DNA from: Rhynochetos jubatus
Taxonomy: Eukaryota; Chordata; Aves; Eurypygiformes; Rhynochetidae
Reading direction: 5' to 3'
Length of the DNA stretch: 64,000 nucleotides
Assembly: GCA_027574665.1 (NCBI GenBank)
Contig: CM050666.1
Coordinates: 9,300,001-9,364,000, forward strand
Part shown: in pieces, positions 25,740-35,195 of the stretch
Numbering within the stretch: the first letter of the stretch is position 1
Layout: each line of letters starts with the position of its first letter
The notes under the pieces: model-generated
Database searches by the model: none
What the model was told of the DNA's origin: nothing
Seen by the model: the letters and a program-made list of their open reading frames with translations, nothing else
Made by a program: the position numbers and the translations under genes

Positions 25740-28100
25740 TCCTTCTCCGTCTGAAAGTCAGCTCGATACTACGAGGACTCTGAAAACGTGTATCTGGCTA
25801 CCAAATTTTACTGAATCCACAACATCGTGTGTACACATTTCTATATATTTCATTTTCACCAGCATGTGGATAAGGTCATTCATGTTTACACCATTAAGCC
25901 TAGCGGTTTTCTCTTCCTTAGGACCTATTTTCAATAGATAACCAGAAATAATTTAATGAAGCCTAGAACAGAACATAAGCCCTTAATGGTTTACCCTTGG
26001 TGTTAAATAAGTAAGGAAATTATTCACTACCATCATTTTGTGGACGTTTTAATCTTATGGTTACCTAATCTCTTACACAGTAGTTAGGAGAACAAAAGAA
26101 ATGTGTACAGAGGCAAAGCACCCACCTACTAACCTATCAGTACTACTTTCAACAAGCCTATTTTTCAATAAGGCATTTTGCTTACGGAAATCTGAAGAAC
26201 AAATTCCTATCCATAGGCATTTTCCCCAAATGCTCCATCACCAACCTCATTACGCGATACAGAAATCCTCCCAAGGGATATTATGTAATGGCAATCCCTC
26301 CTTCCTCTCCCTAAGGAGTATATTTCTCATTACACTGCCTAGTAATTGATCAGTCTAGGAAATCATTTCTGGTAAAACCATATGTTTCTTTACCGAGTTC
26401 AGAATTTCCATCTTTATTCAAAAGGATAGAAGACTGCAAGAAACCCTAAAATTTCTATTTCTGATGCAGAATGCCAATCTTTGCTCAAACATGCTATTAA
26501 GCGAGGAGCAACACGTTCTTGGACCTGCCTGACTTCAGATCTTGTAAATTCATAAAGTCACTAAAATTAACCAGCTTACATTTCCTATTCCAATGACACA
26601 AATAATTTTACTTGACTGAATCTTCTGGAATGACTTCAAGACATATTCAAATGAATCCAGACACCACAATCCTCTGCTATGATGGGTCACTCAACCCAAG
26701 CATGCTGGGAGTCAAGGAAAAAAAAAAAAAACAACCCAGAATAAAAAGCAAATAGCTGAGACAGAAAATGACATACACATCTGTGCTCTCCAAAAGCACC
26801 CTACAGCATGGGCTCGCTCACTGAAGAACGCAGCCCTTTCCCTTGCCATTTCTGTCAACATATCACCACTAAACATCCTAACAGTTGCTAGTTAAAAAGA
26901 GGAAACACTAACATTTGCACCGCTTACTGAAAGACAACACTTCTAATGGCAACATTCTTGCAAAATCAGAGCAAAATAAATATCAACTACTGCTACAGGT
27001 CTGTAGCTTACGGCTGGAATTCGAAACATACTCCAACCCCTTTTAAACTTAAAAATACCAGCGCTACCAGTGACACTGCTATTTGCTCTAGCCAGCACAG
27101 GCCACGGGGTCCAACAGATGACTGCATGTCCCGATAGAATAACACCGGGATATATTTTGCCCCTTCGTTTATTTATGAGAACAGACTGCCCCTCTCTGAT
27201 AAACAAGGCTTAAGGTTTCACTCAGAATAACCCACCTTCCAAATAAAATTAATAATAATAAAAAAATCACTCTGTACTAGTGAAAACTTGTGATCCAAGT
27301 AAATAAAATACTGCCTTCCTTGTTTTATAGCATTAATCTCCTCTGGAAAAGAAACCCAGGCAGCCCAGGCTAGTACCCTTTGGCTTTAGCACTGGGCAGT
27401 GCTAGGGAACTGTTGTCAGCAAAGAAGAAAATTCTTGAAGAGAGCATTACAAGTCTGCCACTTGTAAGAAGTTAATGCTGTGTGTATAAATCAAGCAGCT
27501 CGTCCTTGTAAGTCTGTATGTGGGGAAAATCGGATTTATACATAAACATAAACCTCTGAAGTAAATTCTGATCAGGGACAGCCAGAGATTTAACTCTCTA
27601 GAAAGAAGACCGGGAAGACTATTTTCCTGTAATACCTTAGCCAGCTGAGCGACGCTTTCTTTCAGGAATTGATAACGAAGTAAATAATTCCAGTTTCTAC
27701 GGCACAGGGGAGACTGGTTAAGGACGATCTCCAGGACCCAGAGCAATCATTCAGAACAGTAACTTACATAACAAGAAATTATCTTTGTTACAAAATTAGG
27801 TTAAAAGGACCTCAGATACTGTAATGTTACAAAAAATCAGGACATGCCTTGAGAAGATTAGCTAGCAAGCAGCCTCCTGAGATGAACGCGCAACTTCAAG
27901 AAGATTTCACAAGCCTAAAAAACAGTTTAAATTCCAGAGAGACATACAAGCCTCTGCCATTTAAAAGGTCCTTCTGTCCTCGCCTTATTCCTGAGCTTTT
28001 TCCAAACCGTCTTTAGTTAACCAGTGACCTGGAAATCTTGCTTCGCCCCCCCTCCCTCCCCCATTCAAATTTGTCACTTTTAAACACACAAGGTTTAATT
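25740..28100. other. AT-rich sequence between the two CpG islands
   Basis: No gene recognised. Contains AT-rich complex stretches (25,740-26,100; 27,230-27,330), an A14 run near 26,719 and ATTA-containing sequence at 28,085-28,120 next to island 2. If the minus-strand exon at 29,330-29,348 is real, this is the start of its first intron. Confidence 0.45.
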
Positions 28101-29329
28101 TCTTAATTGGATTAAATTTTTTCCTGTCGAGGGAAGCAGAGGGGGCAGAGCAGCAGCCGCGGGGCCAGAGCACCGCCTGGGCAGCCAGCCCGCGGCTCAG
28201 CGCGGCCACCGCAACCTGCCCGGCCGGGGCAGGCGGCAGGGCTGCGTCCAGGCCAAAGCACACACACACCGGGGGGGGGCCAGGGGGGAGAAACCCCGCC
28301 GAGCACTTTAAAACTTGCTATTCTTTGTGCCCAGAGGGGTTCTGGCCTGCACCGAGGGGGTTAACCGCCGGCGACAGATTTTTAAGTTTGTCACGGTTCT
28401 TAATAGCCAGCAATGCCAGACAAACACCGTGTGTCCCCCGACAGCCGGCTGCGACACCCAGCCCGCCGGGAGAACACCCCGACAGAGCCAACTCGCGACA
28501 TTCCGCTGAAGGGGACCGTTGACGCGCCTACAAAGCTGGGCTGCGGACGGCTGCCGGGTCGCACCGCCGCGGTCACCCGTGGGTGGGGGCAGCCGGGGTC
28601 CGCCCGGGCTCAGCAGCGCAGCGCCCCCGGCACGGGTCCAGCGAGGGGGGTGTCGCTCCGGTCCCGCTCTCTGCGGCCCGATCAAGGCAGCGATTCATTC
28701 CCCCCCACTTCGCTCCTGGGCGAGGGGGTGGGAAGAGGGATGCGGTCGCACTGGAGGAATGTGCGAAATGGGGTGAAAAAAGGCGGCTTGGGAACACATC
28801 GCATCCCGGCTGCTCCTCGCTGCCACGTCTCTTAAAAAAAAAAAAAAACACGCCCAGTCTCCCCCCAAACCCCTTCTCCAGAAACCCGTGCGGAGAGCCC
28901 CTCGGTGGTGGGTAACGACCGGGTTCTGCCTCTCCGCGCGCCGCCCGGCTGCATCGCAACACCCGCTCGGGGCAAGGGACGCCAAACACCCGCCGAAAAG
29001 CAACCGGGGGCTGGGGAGGGAGGGAGGGAGGAAGGGGGGGCCGGCAGCGCGGCCGGAAAAATCAAACCACCTCGTCGACGGCACCGAAAGAGACACACAC
29101 CACCCAAAAAAAAAAAAAAAAAAGAAGAAAGACAGAAAAACCGCACGCACACAACCATCGCACCGGGCGGAAAACACGGCGATTTCCTTCTCCCGTCTGA
29201 CCGCAAAGCCGCTGAACTCCGCGGCCCGGCTGAAAAACACTTCCCCCGCCGAGAACCGGGGGGTCGGAGAGGGGAGGAGGAGCCCCTGCGGGGGGTGGCG
29301 GGGTCCCCGGCCCGGAGGGCGCTACTTAC

Positions 29330-29348
29330 CCCGCGGCGCGCAGACCAT
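29330..29348 (-). CDS. Candidate first coding exon, unidentified gene (partial)
   Basis: On the minus strand an ATG in an optimal Kozak context (GCTCGCCATGG) opens the frame M-V-C-A-P-R. After 19 nt it reaches GGG followed by GTAAGT (29,329-29,324), a close match to the vertebrate splice-donor consensus. The first base of a seventh codon ends the exon; reading through would stop at TAG within three codons, which fits splicing. The exon lies in the middle of CpG island 2, as expected for a first exon. If real, the gene runs towards coordinate 1 with a first intron of up to 29 kb or longer, and no later exon is recognised in the window. The frame upstream of the ATG is also open for at least 16 codons, so the true start is not proven. 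A seven-residue start is too short to identify a family. The alternative is a short upstream frame in a 5' UTR, or chance. Confidence 0.4.
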
Positions 29349-29632
29349 GGCGAGCCCCGCCGGCGAGCCGGGCCCCCGCGGGATAATCCACAAGGCGAGG
29401 CCGGGCGGTCCCCGCGGGCGCGGCGCGGAGCCGCTCGGGCTCCCCCCGCCGCGGCACAACGCGGCTCCCGGCCCGGAGGTGCCCCGGGGGTCCCGCCGGC
29501 CCCCGCCGCTGCGCCTCCGCCTCCTCCCGCCGCAGTCTCCGCCGCCCGCTCCTTCTCCTTCGCTCTTTCGGGGGAGCAGCAGCGCGTCTCTTCTTTCTTT
29601 CTCCTCTTTTATTTTTTCCTTCCCCTCCCTTG

Positions 29633-29636
<4 letters not shown>

Positions 29637-29663
<27 letters not shown>

Positions 29664-29668
29664 GGGGG
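29637..29668. repeat. T16-G16 homopolymer junction
   Basis: Sixteen T are followed directly by sixteen G, then by TGTGTGTGTTGGG and further T7/T8 and G runs to about 29,699. The G run can form quadruplexes and the run lengths are probably unstable or imprecise in the assembly. Confidence 0.85.
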
Positions 29669-30238
29669 TGTGTGTGTTGGGTTTTTTTGGGTTTTTTTTC
29701 CTCCCTCCTGGCCGAACCCGGGGCTCAAAGTTTGCGCCCCCTCCGCCGCGCCCCGGCAGGCTGCGTCCCCGCCGCCCGCTCAGCCCCGGAGCCGCCTCGC
29801 AGACGGCGCTACGGGTCCATCACCCTCGGGGCCGCGGCGGGGCGAAAAAACACGCGAGGGGTGGTGTGTGGGGGGGGGGAGGCGAAAAGCCCACGGACAC
29901 ACCACAAAAAAGGTAAAAATAAAAATTAAAAAATAAACCCCAGCAAAAATAACCAGCGACGCAGGCGGCTCCGGCCGGCATCCGACGAAGGGGGAGACGA
30001 GGAAAGCTCAGCGCCGCAGGCAGCCCCAGCCCGGCCCCATCTAGGGGCTTCCCCCGGCGGCGGATTTCTTTCTCTCCTTCTTTTTCGTGATTCACGCCTC
30101 GGTAGCCATTATTCCCAAACATGGACGAGGAGGAACCGTGCCGAAACCCGCTCCGCTCCGCGGCAGCGGTGCCGCTCCTCGGGCGCTCCGCGGCGCGACT
30201 GCTCCGCGCGGCCGCGGCTGAGCGCCTCCCGCCCCGTT

Positions 30239-30259
30239 CCCCCCCCCCCCCCCCCCCCC
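30239..30259. repeat. C21 homopolymer
   Basis: Twenty-one consecutive C, 52 bp before the perfect inverted repeat. It is capable of i-motif or quadruplex structure. The length may be uncertain because such runs are hard to sequence. Confidence 0.85.
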
Positions 30260-30311
30260 AGCCCGCCCGCCGCCAAGGCGAGACCAATCCAGCCACGAGA
30301 CGCGGATCCCC

Positions 30312-30406
30312 GCGCGCCCGGCTCCGCGCGGCTCGCGCGCGCCCGCCTGCCCCGCCACGGGGGCGGGGCAGGCGGGCGCGCGCGAGCCGCGCGGAGCCGG
30401 GCGCGC
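30312..30406. repeat. Perfect 45-bp inverted repeat, 5-nt loop
   Basis: The left arm 30,312-30,356 is the exact reverse complement of the right arm 30,362-30,406, checked base by base. The spacer is ACGGG. The arms are nearly all G and C and CpG-rich. The bases just outside (C at 30,311, A at 30,407) do not pair, so the arms end cleanly. Such a structure would extrude a very stable hairpin. It could be a real palindrome at the island edge, a fold-back mutation scar, or a sequencing or assembly artefact. Confidence 0.95.
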
Positions 30407-30584
30407 ACCCGAGCGCACGGGCCGTGCGTGCGCTGCCCGTGGTGGTCCCTGTGCATTGTCTGGGGTGGGTGTGCCACCGTGCGCGCAGGTGTGAGTCCAC
30501 CGCCCGAACCCACGGGCGTGGGGTGCGCGTGGTCCGTAAGTGCACAGCGCACACGCTGCCTGCAGCTTTGTGCAGAGCGTGCAG

Positions 30585-31500
30585 GAGCCGTGTCCGTGAA
30601 CGGCGGCGTGTGCACGGCCTGCGTGTGCGCTGCGTGTGCGCGCAATGCATGTCCGCTGCACGAGCCGTGTCTGTGAACAGCCGGTGTGTGCGTGGCCTGC
30701 GTGCGTGCACAATGCGTGTGCGCTGCATGAGCTGTGTCTGTGAACAGTTGGTGTGTGCATGGCCTGCGTGTGCGCTGCGTGTGTGCGCTGCATGAGCCGT
30801 GTCTGTGAACAGCTGGTGTGTGCGTGACCTGCGTGTGCGCTGCATGTGTGCGCTGCATGAGCTGTGTCTGTGAACAGCCGGTGTGTGCGTGACCTGTGTG
30901 TGCGCTGCATGTGTGCGCTGTGTGTGTGTGCGCTGCACGAGCCGTGTCTGTGAACAGCTGGTGTGTGCGTGGCCTGCGTGTGCGCTGCGTGCGTGCGCTG
31001 CGTGCGTGCACTGTGTGTGTGTGCGCTGCATGAGCTGTGTCTGTGAACAGCTGGTGTGTGCATGGCCTGCGTGTGTGCTCTGTGTGCGTGTGCTGCCTGC
31101 GTGTGTGCTGCACAAGCTGTATCTGTGAACGGTCAGTGTGTGCATGACCTACGTGTGTGCTCTGTGTGTGCTGCACGACCTGTGTCTGTGAACAGCCTGC
31201 GTGTGCATGGCCTGTGTGTGCACCGCACGAGCTGTGTCTGTGAACGGCCTGCGTATGCACGGCCTGCGTGTGCACTGCACGAGCTGTGTCTGTGAACGGC
31301 CTGCGTGTGCACTGCATGAGCTGTGTCTGTGAACAGTCAGCGTGTGCACAGCCTGTGTGTGCTCTGCATGTGTGTGCACTGCACGAGCTGTGTCTGTGAA
31401 CGGCCTGCGTGTTCATGGCCTGCGTGTGCACTGCACGAGCTGTGTCTGTGAACAGCCTGCGTGTGCACAGCCTGCGTGTGCTCTGTGTGCATGTGGTCTG
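30585..31500. repeat. TG-rich minisatellite, 14 variable units
   Basis: Fourteen units each begin with GAGC[C/T]GTGTCTGTGAAC or a one-base variant. Starts are at 30,585, 30,662, 30,729, 30,794, 30,859, 30,939, 31,032, 31,114, 31,177, 31,229, 31,281, 31,318, 31,385 and 31,437. Unit lengths run from 37 to 93 bp, because the core is constant while an internal TGCGTGTGCGCTGC-type filler expands and contracts. Left units are longer with CpG-rich filler; right units are shorter with TGCACTGCACGAG junctions. Frames up to 488 codons run through it on the minus strand in all three phases, so coding is not credible. Confidence 0.9.
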
Positions 31501-31770
31501 CCTGTGCACAGCATCTACACGTGTACACAGTCTGTACGGATGTGCGTGGCCTGGGTGCGCGTTCGGTGTGCGCACACGGTGTGTGCAGTTGGCGCGTGTG
31601 CATCACACAGCCAGCGTGTGATCTCTGCATGCCCAGTCTGTGCACACAGCGTGTGCGCGCGCACATGATGGGAGAGCGCACGGAGCGCGCGTTAACGCTT
31701 GCTGGATGCACGGGCACGTATGCACGCGTGGTGTGCATGTGTGCGTGTGCGCGCACGCTTCCTTCCCCAC
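31500..31770. repeat. Degenerate TG/CG flank of the minisatellite
   Basis: Alternating purine-pyrimidine sequence (GTGCGCGC, CACGTGTACACAG, TGTGCGTGTGCGCGCACGC) without the unit core. It is probably decayed array sequence and is a strong Z-DNA candidate. Confidence 0.6.
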
Positions 31771-31904
31771 CCCGCTCTTTTGATGGGCCGGGGTTGGACT
31801 CCTTTCCCTCTATTTTATATGTCAGTTGCAGCCTCCTGTGTCCCTGAGATGCTTTCAGACCCGCAGGGGATCTGGAGCCGGGCGGAGGGAGAAGAGAAAA
31901 GCAA

Positions 31905-32030
31905 AGGAAATGTTTAATCGTGATTAACCTTCACATTGCAAAACAGTTGTTAGTAGGTATATTTAAAATATAATTACTATTGCAGTGATTCATAGGTGCT
32001 TTAATGAACGGTTAATCAATGGCCACAGGG
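31905..32030. promoter_or_regulatory. Candidate conserved non-coding block, homeodomain cluster
   Basis: AT-rich sequence with GTGATTAACC, ATATAATTACTATTG, CTTTAATGAACGG and GGTTAATCAATGG (32,010-32,022). The last resembles a PBX-HOX composite. It begins about 130 bp after the minisatellite flank. Confidence 0.35.
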
Positions 32031-32315
32031 GCCGCGGATCCACGCCGCCTGACACGCCTGGTTAGTGCCTGCCGCAGTAAACATGATTCATGGAGACGGG
32101 TGAGCCCCTGCCCTCCCTCTCCCCCGGCTGGAGCCGGGCCAGCACACCCACCCAGCCTTCGCGCGCCCGCGCACCCGAAACACCCCGTCCTGCGCCGCCT
32201 GCCCTCGCACGGCTGCTCTGCAGCGTTCGGGGTGTTCGCACGCGGTCCCAGCGCTGCGACCGCCTCTTGGGTGGGGGAACAGAACCGCCTGAGGACGGTT
32301 TTCGGCTGGCCTTGA
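32031..32315. other. GC-rich insert between two AT-rich blocks
   Basis: GC- and CpG-rich sequence separating two otherwise similar AT-rich blocks. A plus-strand donor-like GACGGGTGAGCC lies at 32,095-32,106, but no exon can be supported. Confidence 0.35.
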
Positions 32316-32560
32316 GAAATTATCTGAAAATCTTCCGGGAGAAAGGCAGTAAACATCTGTATACTATTAAATCCATTAGATGTGTTCATTACTTTATATT
32401 GATTGGTATATCACTACACAAAGTTAATATATTATGATTATTAGTATATTGTTAAATCATTAAATACGACAGCAGATGCAATAAATAATTTCCAGGGGAT
32501 CTCTGCTGACATTCAGAAATTGATGGGTATGTTTTTCCTTTTGCATCCTGGCTGACTGCA
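32316..32560. promoter_or_regulatory. Candidate conserved non-coding block
   Basis: Highly AT-rich complex sequence (TTATATTGATTGGTATATC, AATATATTATGATTATTAG, AAATCATTAAATACG) with several ATTA and ATCATT cores and no repeat structure. Regulatory role inferred. Confidence 0.35.
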
Positions 32561-32564
32561 GGAC

Positions 32565-35195
32565 TGCAGCGACGCTCTGGCTGCTCTGACTGATCTCCTT
32601 CCCCAGCTCTCCTTTGCAAGTAAAGGCAGCTGAAAGAGCCTGCTCCACCATGCCCAAGTTTGCATTTTAAAAGATGAAGCTGAATTAATAGAAGCCCCAA
32701 AGAAACCTGTTGGACGAGGATATTCAAACCACTTGCATGAAACGGAGAGCCACGAGAAGGATTTACACCTGAGGCCGCCTCTTGCTGTTGCTCTGGGAGA
32801 AGAACACCCTCTTGCAACACCAACAGGGTTTTTGTGTGAAAACGCAAGGACGGAGCTGCCCTCCCGGCAGCGGCTGCCTGCCGCCGCCACCCCACGGCCT
32901 GTGGGTACCCGTCCGGCGAGCTCTCCTGACTGTGGAGCACGGCAGCAAAAGCATCCCCAAACCCTCAGCCCAGACTCCAGGTCACCGGGGTTTGTGGATT
33001 TATGGCACAGCTCCTCATGAAACAGCAGATGTTGGAGAGTGCGCACATCTGTATCTTTACAGCAGGGGAGCTGGATGCCAATCAGGGTTAATTCGGGATA
33101 AATTTACAAGAGCGCACAGCATGACCCAAGGTACCTCTTTATTGGCCTACTACAGGCCTGCTAAATACATTGCCCGACTACTACACATTAAAGCCACATG
33201 AGCCTATATGTTCAAAATGAATTTTACAGGAAGACACAGGGATAGAAGAAGGAGGAGAGCCTGTGTCACAAATGACATCCAGATGTGAAAACACTGTAAA
33301 TACAAACATCAAAAGGCTCACCCCTCCACATTTTGCAAAGACAACATCGGAGAAAGGACTTGCTGCCTTTAAACAAATATTCTCGGCAAGGAAGCCAAGG
33401 AGCCTGCTGTCCCCAGTGCACAGCAAAGCCCCACGGCTCCGAGCGGGAATCAGCCATTCGTCAGGGCAAACAGGCAGCAAACATTATGCCATCCTCTAGA
33501 GGGTCCAACCTTGGATCAGGGGCAATGAAGTGGGATGGAAGGAGATATCTTCCTAAGAAGACCAGAAGTTAAATAACTCAGATCTGAAAACCACACTCCA
33601 GAAAGCATGTGATTATTCAGATGAGATCTCCAGAGCTACGACATACTTCTTACTAGAATAGATACCATTCAGGGATGGCCCTCAGCCTTGCCTGTTGCAC
33701 GAAATAACTAAATAAATAGGTGCCTTTTAAAGCCTCGGTATTTGCCACAGCGAAGATAAGACTGGTGTGATAGCTTAGAAAATCTGGGATATCTGGTAAA
33801 CTGCTCAGTAACTTTGTTTTAAGGAGACATGGCAAAAGCAAGGCCATTCCCCGGGAAGGGCTCTGGAGAGCTCAAAATCTCCACTCGCATGGGCCTACAG
33901 AGGAGGATGAGCCAGCAGCGAGTCACCACGAGTGAAGGAGGAGTGTTCCTGGAGTGAGCACTCATCCCATCTGTCACCTATCCCACTGTCCCCTTCCCTT
34001 CTTACCCACCTCCAATGGCAGCCAGACACAATGGGGGACAAAGCTGGCTTGAAGCAGGACAGAAGAAACCTGAAGTAGTATCAACAGCAGCGGAAACCAC
34101 TGAACAGCCTTCCAGAAAGGCAGGGGATTGGCGGGTAAGTGGTGCACGCAGGGTGCAATCTCAGATGTTTACTTGGTGTTCTGGGTTCAGCCCTCAAGTG
34201 TGCAAACCAAGATGACAGCACTGGGCGTTACTTGCTTGAACTCTCCTCTCGGAGCAGCGTGGCCAGGCGTCGGGTTAGCGCAGTGTGAAAGTGCACGGGG
34301 TGTGCTCTTGTTTTCTCATCTTTTCAAGATGCTATCTGACCACCGACAGCTTACACGCTGCGTGAACAGACCACATGAGGGACTCCATACCGAGCTTGTG
34401 CTAATCTCTTGAAGGTGCTGGGATGCCAGGGTGTGGGGCAGTGTGTGCTCACAGGGAAATGATGAGATAAGATAGGCTGTGGCTATTGTTTTCACTCACG
34501 TCTGACTCAAGGCCGCAGGGTCACAGCCATCCGCTCTACCAGCGGTATCTGTCTCAAGTGGAGAGCACCCCTCGAGACAGGACTCCATCAGACTAGACTG
34601 GAGCATGGAAGACTCTCCTCACACCCCGAGCCAGACTGTAGTTCTTATTTTGCAGCTAAAAGCTTCAAGCAGTTTAAGACTGGCAGTGCTGACAAAAGAA
34701 GGAGAAAGCACTTAACCATAGCGCTGCATAAAGATGTCATGAGGAAATCAGGATTTTACAGTAGAGTGAGTAGAAAAACACTCAGGAAGAGCTTGGATAA
34801 ACTCGGGACTAGATTCAATAAGAGACGCCAGCCACCTCCTGCACAGTGTGCCCCCACCTGGGCTTCTGCTGGGAGGCAGCCGGAGAGAAGTTTTATTGAA
34901 TCTTGTATTGAGCCTATCTCTAGGCTGGTAGCTGCGCTAGGTACCCTCACCAGGGCCTAAAAATAGAAATGAAATGACACAGGAGTTTGCAGTGAAACTG
35001 TTAAAATATGCTGTGATTTGCTGTAGGGCGCGCTGGGAGAGGAGCGTGGCGGAGGACAGCGTGGTGTGCCAGCCTGCCTGCCGGGCACCCAAAGCTGCCG
35101 CCGAGAGCCCCCGCGGGGCCTGGCTGCAGACAGAGCGGGAGCTCCACCGCAGCTCCCCATCCCTGTGCTCGCTGGTGATGCACAGCTCTGCTCCA
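32565..35195. other. Non-coding, nothing recognised
   Basis: Frames up to 177 codons (32,513-33,046, minus) show no domain and overlap frames in other phases. No repeats are recognised. Confidence 0.5.

Follow-up and report, generated by a model that had tools for sequence, protein, structure and literature searches.

A perfect GC-rich palindrome in a CpG island of Rhynochetos jubatus that probably records a slip in DNA copying

The palindrome and its surroundings

The window, by which we mean the whole 64-kb stretch of DNA analysed here, is part of an 18-Mb contig in a 1.33-Gb assembly of 148 contigs. It contains a perfect palindrome within a long CpG-rich and GC-rich stretch. The features at the locus, numbered from the first letter of the window, are as follows.

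28201..31800, no strand: CpG-rich, GC-rich stretch around the palindrome (200-bp bins with GC 0.57-0.86 and CpG observed/expected 0.56-1.18)
30239..30259, + strand: C21 homopolymer run, left of the palindrome
30284..30288, + strand: CCAAT motif, separated from the left arm by 23 nt; a possible promoter element, judged from the motif alone
30312..30356, + strand: left arm of the inverted repeat, 45 nt, perfect
30357..30361, no strand: loop ACGGG, 5 nt
30360..30369, + strand: overlapping GGGGCGGGG and GGGCGGGGC at the hairpin tip, a word match
30362..30406, + strand: right arm, 45 nt, complementary to the left arm without a mismatch
about 30580..31487, + strand: degenerate GC-rich minisatellite, right of the palindrome and beside the island, with overlapping periods from 15 to 156 (15, 52, 65 and 145 among them)

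The preliminary description of this DNA had claimed two perfect 45-nt arms around a 5-nt loop, and this is borne out: the arms are complementary at 45 of 45 positions, with zero mismatches, on either side of the loop ACGGG. Each arm has a GC content of 93% and carries 12 CpG. Apart from nested readings of the palindrome itself, the 64-kb window holds no other perfect hairpin with arms of at least 11 bp and a loop of up to 30 nt. The longest perfect arm to arise in 60 order-2 Markov simulations of 1-kb island sequence, with loops of up to 20 nt, was 12 bp (mean 8.4). Folded as DNA, the palindrome reaches a predicted -86.4 kcal/mol, which is 11 sd below dinucleotide shuffles; folded as RNA, the same stretch reaches -130.3 kcal/mol and is about 11 sd more stable than its shuffles. 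The symmetry collapses at once beyond the arms, where 4 of the next 20 columns pair. By eye, the left flank ends in CCCC and the right flank, which is unrelated, begins with ACCC.

A search of the chromosome-scale assembly with the palindrome and its surroundings (121 bases), in a procedure that skips very common words, matched one place, with hits on both strands. Long hairpins were also sought elsewhere in the genome, in a further 20 stretches of 10 kb each that amount to 200 kb including 363 N, and these contained zero arms of at least 18 bp (up to two mismatches, loop of 3-12 nt). A 21st stretch that had been fetched, L003, falls within the window and was left out of this background sample.

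The palindrome sits at the GC peak of its surroundings, in the 200-bp bin 30201-30400, which has a GC content of 0.86 and 39 CpG. Its placement in the preliminary description at the edge of a CpG island is roughly right, in that the island passes into the CpG-rich minisatellite there, but the palindrome occupies the most GC-rich bin. The C21 run and the minisatellite named in that description are both real. The overlapping GGGGCGGGG and GGGCGGGGC, which we take to be an Sp1-type GC box, have their sole matches on either strand of 27900-32600 at the tip of the hairpin, and the site is probably promoter-like. Elsewhere within the island, T16 is immediately followed by G16 at 29637-29668, beside a GT-rich tract.

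No convincing exons emerged from the list of open reading frames between 20 and 40 kb, from a rough scan of the window for splice and codon signals, or from a Pfam search with 10 candidate segments. The single Pfam line returned by these segments, AFP (E 0.075), scored 13.8 bits and lies far below the cut-off of 36.5. The window gave 0 matches to Rfam families at the gathering threshold. Local alignment of each arm to both flanks, which might have told the original arm from its copy, gave borderline results that favour neither arm: the left arm aligned with about 30193-30234 at p 0.015 when the flank was shuffled and 0.125 when the arm was shuffled, and the right arm with a stretch near 29394 at p 0.005 and 0.055, respectively. 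The GC skew changes sign at the palindrome, from -0.30 in the left 150 bp to +0.09 in the right 150 bp; as a hallmark of such hairpins this was dropped, the six other hairpins compared being not consistently alike.

Hairpins of similar anatomy elsewhere in the genome

The bird's own genome was surveyed for GC-rich 8-mers that face their own reverse complement across 3-12 nt. Four seeds were used, GCCCCGCC, GGCTCCGC, CCGCCTCC and GGCGGGGC, giving 38, 9, 6 and 68 matches; the first 50 of the 68 were examined, so that the set read comprises 103 matches at 102 places. Eight of the 103 are long inverted repeats, five of them perfect and three with one mismatch or indel. The perfect members are the palindrome of the window (45-bp arms), L034 (35 bp), L120 (34 bp), L094 (33 bp) and L114 (30 bp), and the window palindrome is the longest among the hairpins detected in the genome. 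L120 (C21:16182243-16182407), with a loop of 3 nt, shares its contig with the window at a distance of 6.85 Mb. The loops of the five measure 3, 3, 3, 3 and 5 nt, a length that is partly imposed because the seeds fix the 8-mer and allow a spacing of 3-12 nt only. The three members with one difference are L062, with a T/C mismatch, L086, with a G/T mismatch, and L099, with a 1-nt indel in a G run. After the perfect members, the longest total perfect arms are those of L062 (22 bp), L099 (19 bp), L092 (16 bp) and L033 (15 bp).

Perfect pairing extends outward from the seed by 0-3 pairs at 93 of the 103 matches, by 4 at two and by 8-37 at eight. When mismatches and indels are allowed, the eight long inverted repeats score at least 14 and the next matches are L092 (8), L111 (6) and L083 (5); shuffling these flanks 1,030 times never gave a score above 11. 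Background columns were observed to pair at a rate of 0.318, at which 18 or more outward pairs would arise by chance with a probability of about 1e-9 per place.

The eight hairpins have a common anatomy, with arms of 26-45 bp, loops of 3-9 nt and a sudden loss of symmetry, and to the eye their arms look unrelated to each other beyond the seeds. Unrelated arms within one anatomy point to a process and not to a repeat family. CpG-island-like DNA surrounds seven of the eight, that of the window included. For six of the other seven, the two central 200-bp bins of 1.2-kb stretches have GC of 0.58-0.83 and CpG observed/expected of 0.72-1.30; the exception is L151, the stretch around L086, in which the central two bins have GC of 0.40-0.46 and the outermost bins 0.71 and 0.59.

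Runs of G or C of at least 8 nt occur within 0.6 kb at four of the seven other members, an uncontrolled count that includes L150, where the run lies only inside the hairpin itself. A neighbouring homopolymer as the cause of the hairpins was accordingly dropped.

Two pairs of matches merit separate description. L043 (C13:25070481-25070704) and L044 (C13:25135022-25135245), 64.5 kb apart, share a 12-bp hairpin and a GC-box hairpin core that is inverted between the two places, which suggests an inverted segmental duplication. L069 and L070 (C1:278449 and C1:291014), 12.6 kb apart and within 0.3 Mb of the start of their contig, have identical hairpin cores, which suggests a local direct duplication.

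A single neutral seed served as a control. At the same spacing, 0 of its 26 matches extend into long inverted repeats, and at a wider spacing it gave 46 matches in which perfect pairing runs inward by two steps at most; one of these 46, at C2:80133458, shows about 13 pairs with one indel when judged by eye. Compared like for like, 8 of 103 against 0 of 26 is not significant (Fisher p 0.16); the value becomes 0.013 once the 46 wide-gap matches are added, and for these only inward, perfect pairing was scored. Specificity of the hairpins for GC-rich seeds, drawn from four such seeds and one neutral seed in one genome, is therefore suggestive only. Inverted seed pairs were also counted against a reversed-pattern control, giving 38 versus 54, 9 versus 2, 6 versus 7 and 68 versus 51 for the GC-rich seeds in the order given above, and 26 versus 7 and 46 versus 12 for the neutral seed, whose inverted pairs are enriched although none extends far. 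Being inconsistent against the reversed controls, enrichment of inverted seed pairs was set aside as evidence.

Origin of the palindrome

We think it likely that the palindrome is a genuine and young inverted duplication, the product of one replication or repair event involving a short-range template switch or fold-back. It has the look of a scar left when DNA copying slipped, and of neither a lone oddity nor a designed part. The growing strand, at a GC-rich and probably promoter-like site, would have folded back or crossed to the opposite strand, been extended in reverse for about 45 nt and gone back to its original template. The outcome would be a perfect hairpin whose loop is short and whose symmetry breaks off sharply. 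The seven other hairpins would likewise be young inverted duplications formed in this way at GC-rich sites. Fork stalling or a conflict between transcription and replication may have been the trigger. We infer template switching as the mechanism behind the hairpin. No sign of a function was seen, and the hairpin probably lacks a selected one. The preliminary description had offered recent origin, active homogenisation and a fold-back artefact side by side and had suggested that the site may be a hotspot of breakage or template switching. The best supported of these is now a recent template switch, given that the genome has further hairpins of this anatomy and that some of them carry a single difference between the arms, while the fold-back artefact is disfavoured. 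Neither the C21 run nor the minisatellite shows a link to the duplication event.

Short-range template switching, or folding back of the growing strand, is described as often yielding perfect inverted repeats (PMC7954356; PMC8794818). The palindrome resembles the events of the four-point model in being a local reverse-complement copy that forms a perfect inverted repeat with sharp ends (PMC7954356; PMC8794818): in a template switch, copy and template lie no more than about 100 nt apart, and here 45 of 45 positions match across 5 nt. The arm of 45 nt is longer than the 10 nt that the model takes as the expected length of a switch (PMC7954356). Template switches in great apes are associated with poly(dA:dT) and AT-rich DNA (PMC7954356), an association that does not define the class; the present palindrome, unlike them, lies in a CpG island, with 93% GC in the arms and 0.86 in its bin.

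Comparable differences of setting appear in other collections. Perfect inverted repeats catalogued across genomes, with arms of at least 10 bp and spacers of up to 8 bp, are like the palindrome in these dimensions, but those of eukaryotes are reported to be mostly GC-depleted or AT-rich (PMC13155455), in contrast to its 93% GC. Among human short inverted repeats, longer arms are enriched in AT-rich regions (PMC5737083), and the GC-rich setting found here differs from this as well. Quasi-palindrome mutations of yeast appeared solely when transcription was high in the assay used, were raised by loss of RNase H2 and are tied to RNA:DNA hybrids (PMC3820800). They are attributed to template-switch synthesis that extends the identity of the arms, which is a point of likeness, but they start from an imperfect repeat (PMC3820800), whereas the palindrome is known from its present sequence alone. 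By analogy with yeast, transcription might make CpG-island promoters liable to such events. A survey of the open-access literature, outside which most subscription papers lie, found no work joining template switching with GC-rich CpG-island hairpins. We class the palindrome as a further instance of a mutational outcome already on record, in a GC-rich setting that differs from the reported contexts.

GC-rich islands are difficult to sequence, and a false perfect arm could in principle come from library fold-back or from a consensus or gap-closing error at a GC-rich spot of low coverage. Chimeric inverted-repeat reads are described from sonicated libraries and palindromic ones from enzyme-cut libraries (PMC10908179), and long-read data contain foldback reads (PMC12870357). 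An artefact would also give what is seen at five of the eight hairpins, namely perfect arms, and the indel of L099 falls within a G run and might likewise stem from a sequencing error. Although the palindrome shares its palindromic form with fold-back artefacts (PMC12870357; PMC10908179), its symmetry ends after 45 bp and gives way to unrelated flanks on both sides. We would expect a fold-back read to mirror its template to the end of the read or contig, and here both flanks continue as distinct sequence. Moreover, three of the eight comparable hairpins have one mismatch or indel, as ageing real sequence would show, and the window contains no N. Because the symmetry ends abruptly and slightly decayed relatives exist, we regard a technical origin as unlikely.

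An older, imperfect inverted repeat might instead have been kept or made perfect by repeated quasi-palindrome correction, with no single new duplication. Such correction is the classical outcome of template switching in microbes and may figure in some great-ape events (PMC7954356), and it would fit the small number of more diverged hairpins among the 103 matches, where L083, L030 and L037 are weak cases. Partial long pairing from which correction could start is, however, absent at most GC-seed hairpins, and rapid loss would explain the missing old hairpins equally well. We therefore hold this route to be rather improbable.

Selection for a cruciform, a paired GC-box promoter element or a hairpin RNA appears less probable still. 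The CpG island, the nearby CCAAT motif, the GC box at the tip and the stability of the RNA fold are what such an element might show; against this, the window lacks any Rfam family at the gathering threshold, and outside the seeds the other hairpins have arms with no apparent kinship. In some foldback elements almost the whole length is stem, but terminal inverted repeats of a small MITE or foldback transposon are scarcely credible here, given one matching place in the 1.33-Gb genome (in a search that skips very common words) and flanks, CCCC and ACCC by eye, in which no target-site duplication is seen.

Age and significance

The neutral rate of birds is taken as 1.5-3e-9 per site per year. At this rate, the 3 differences in about 275 paired columns (275-277) of the eight hairpins correspond to a mean age of 2-4 My, and the 0 differences in 45 pairs of the window palindrome place its age below about 11-22 My. 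The preliminary description had named recent origin among the things that perfection may imply; the age is indeed bounded, but 45 pairs bound it only to roughly 11-22 My, and perfection is for this reason weaker evidence of recency than had been implied. Clearly older hairpins are scarce among the 103 matches, with L083, L030 and L037 as weak candidates only. This scarcity could reflect rapid loss or erosion, re-homogenisation of the arms, or the presence of artefacts among the perfect members.

More tentatively, and at a level of confidence well below that given to the origin of the palindrome itself, we propose that template switching may continually add long, near-perfect, short-loop, GC-rich hairpins to the CpG islands of this genome, and that these disappear again within a few My. 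The structure of GC-rich promoters, with R-loops and fork stalling, would here take the place of AT tracts as the driver. Hairpins of this class would duplicate GC boxes in inverted form, and would be a source of promoter turnover. If this is true, the set of 30-45-bp perfect CpG-island hairpins would mean that the same mutation process is active in very GC-rich regulatory DNA. A single template switch could then duplicate or turn round sites for transcription factors, and could create spots in GC-rich regulatory DNA that are difficult to sequence.
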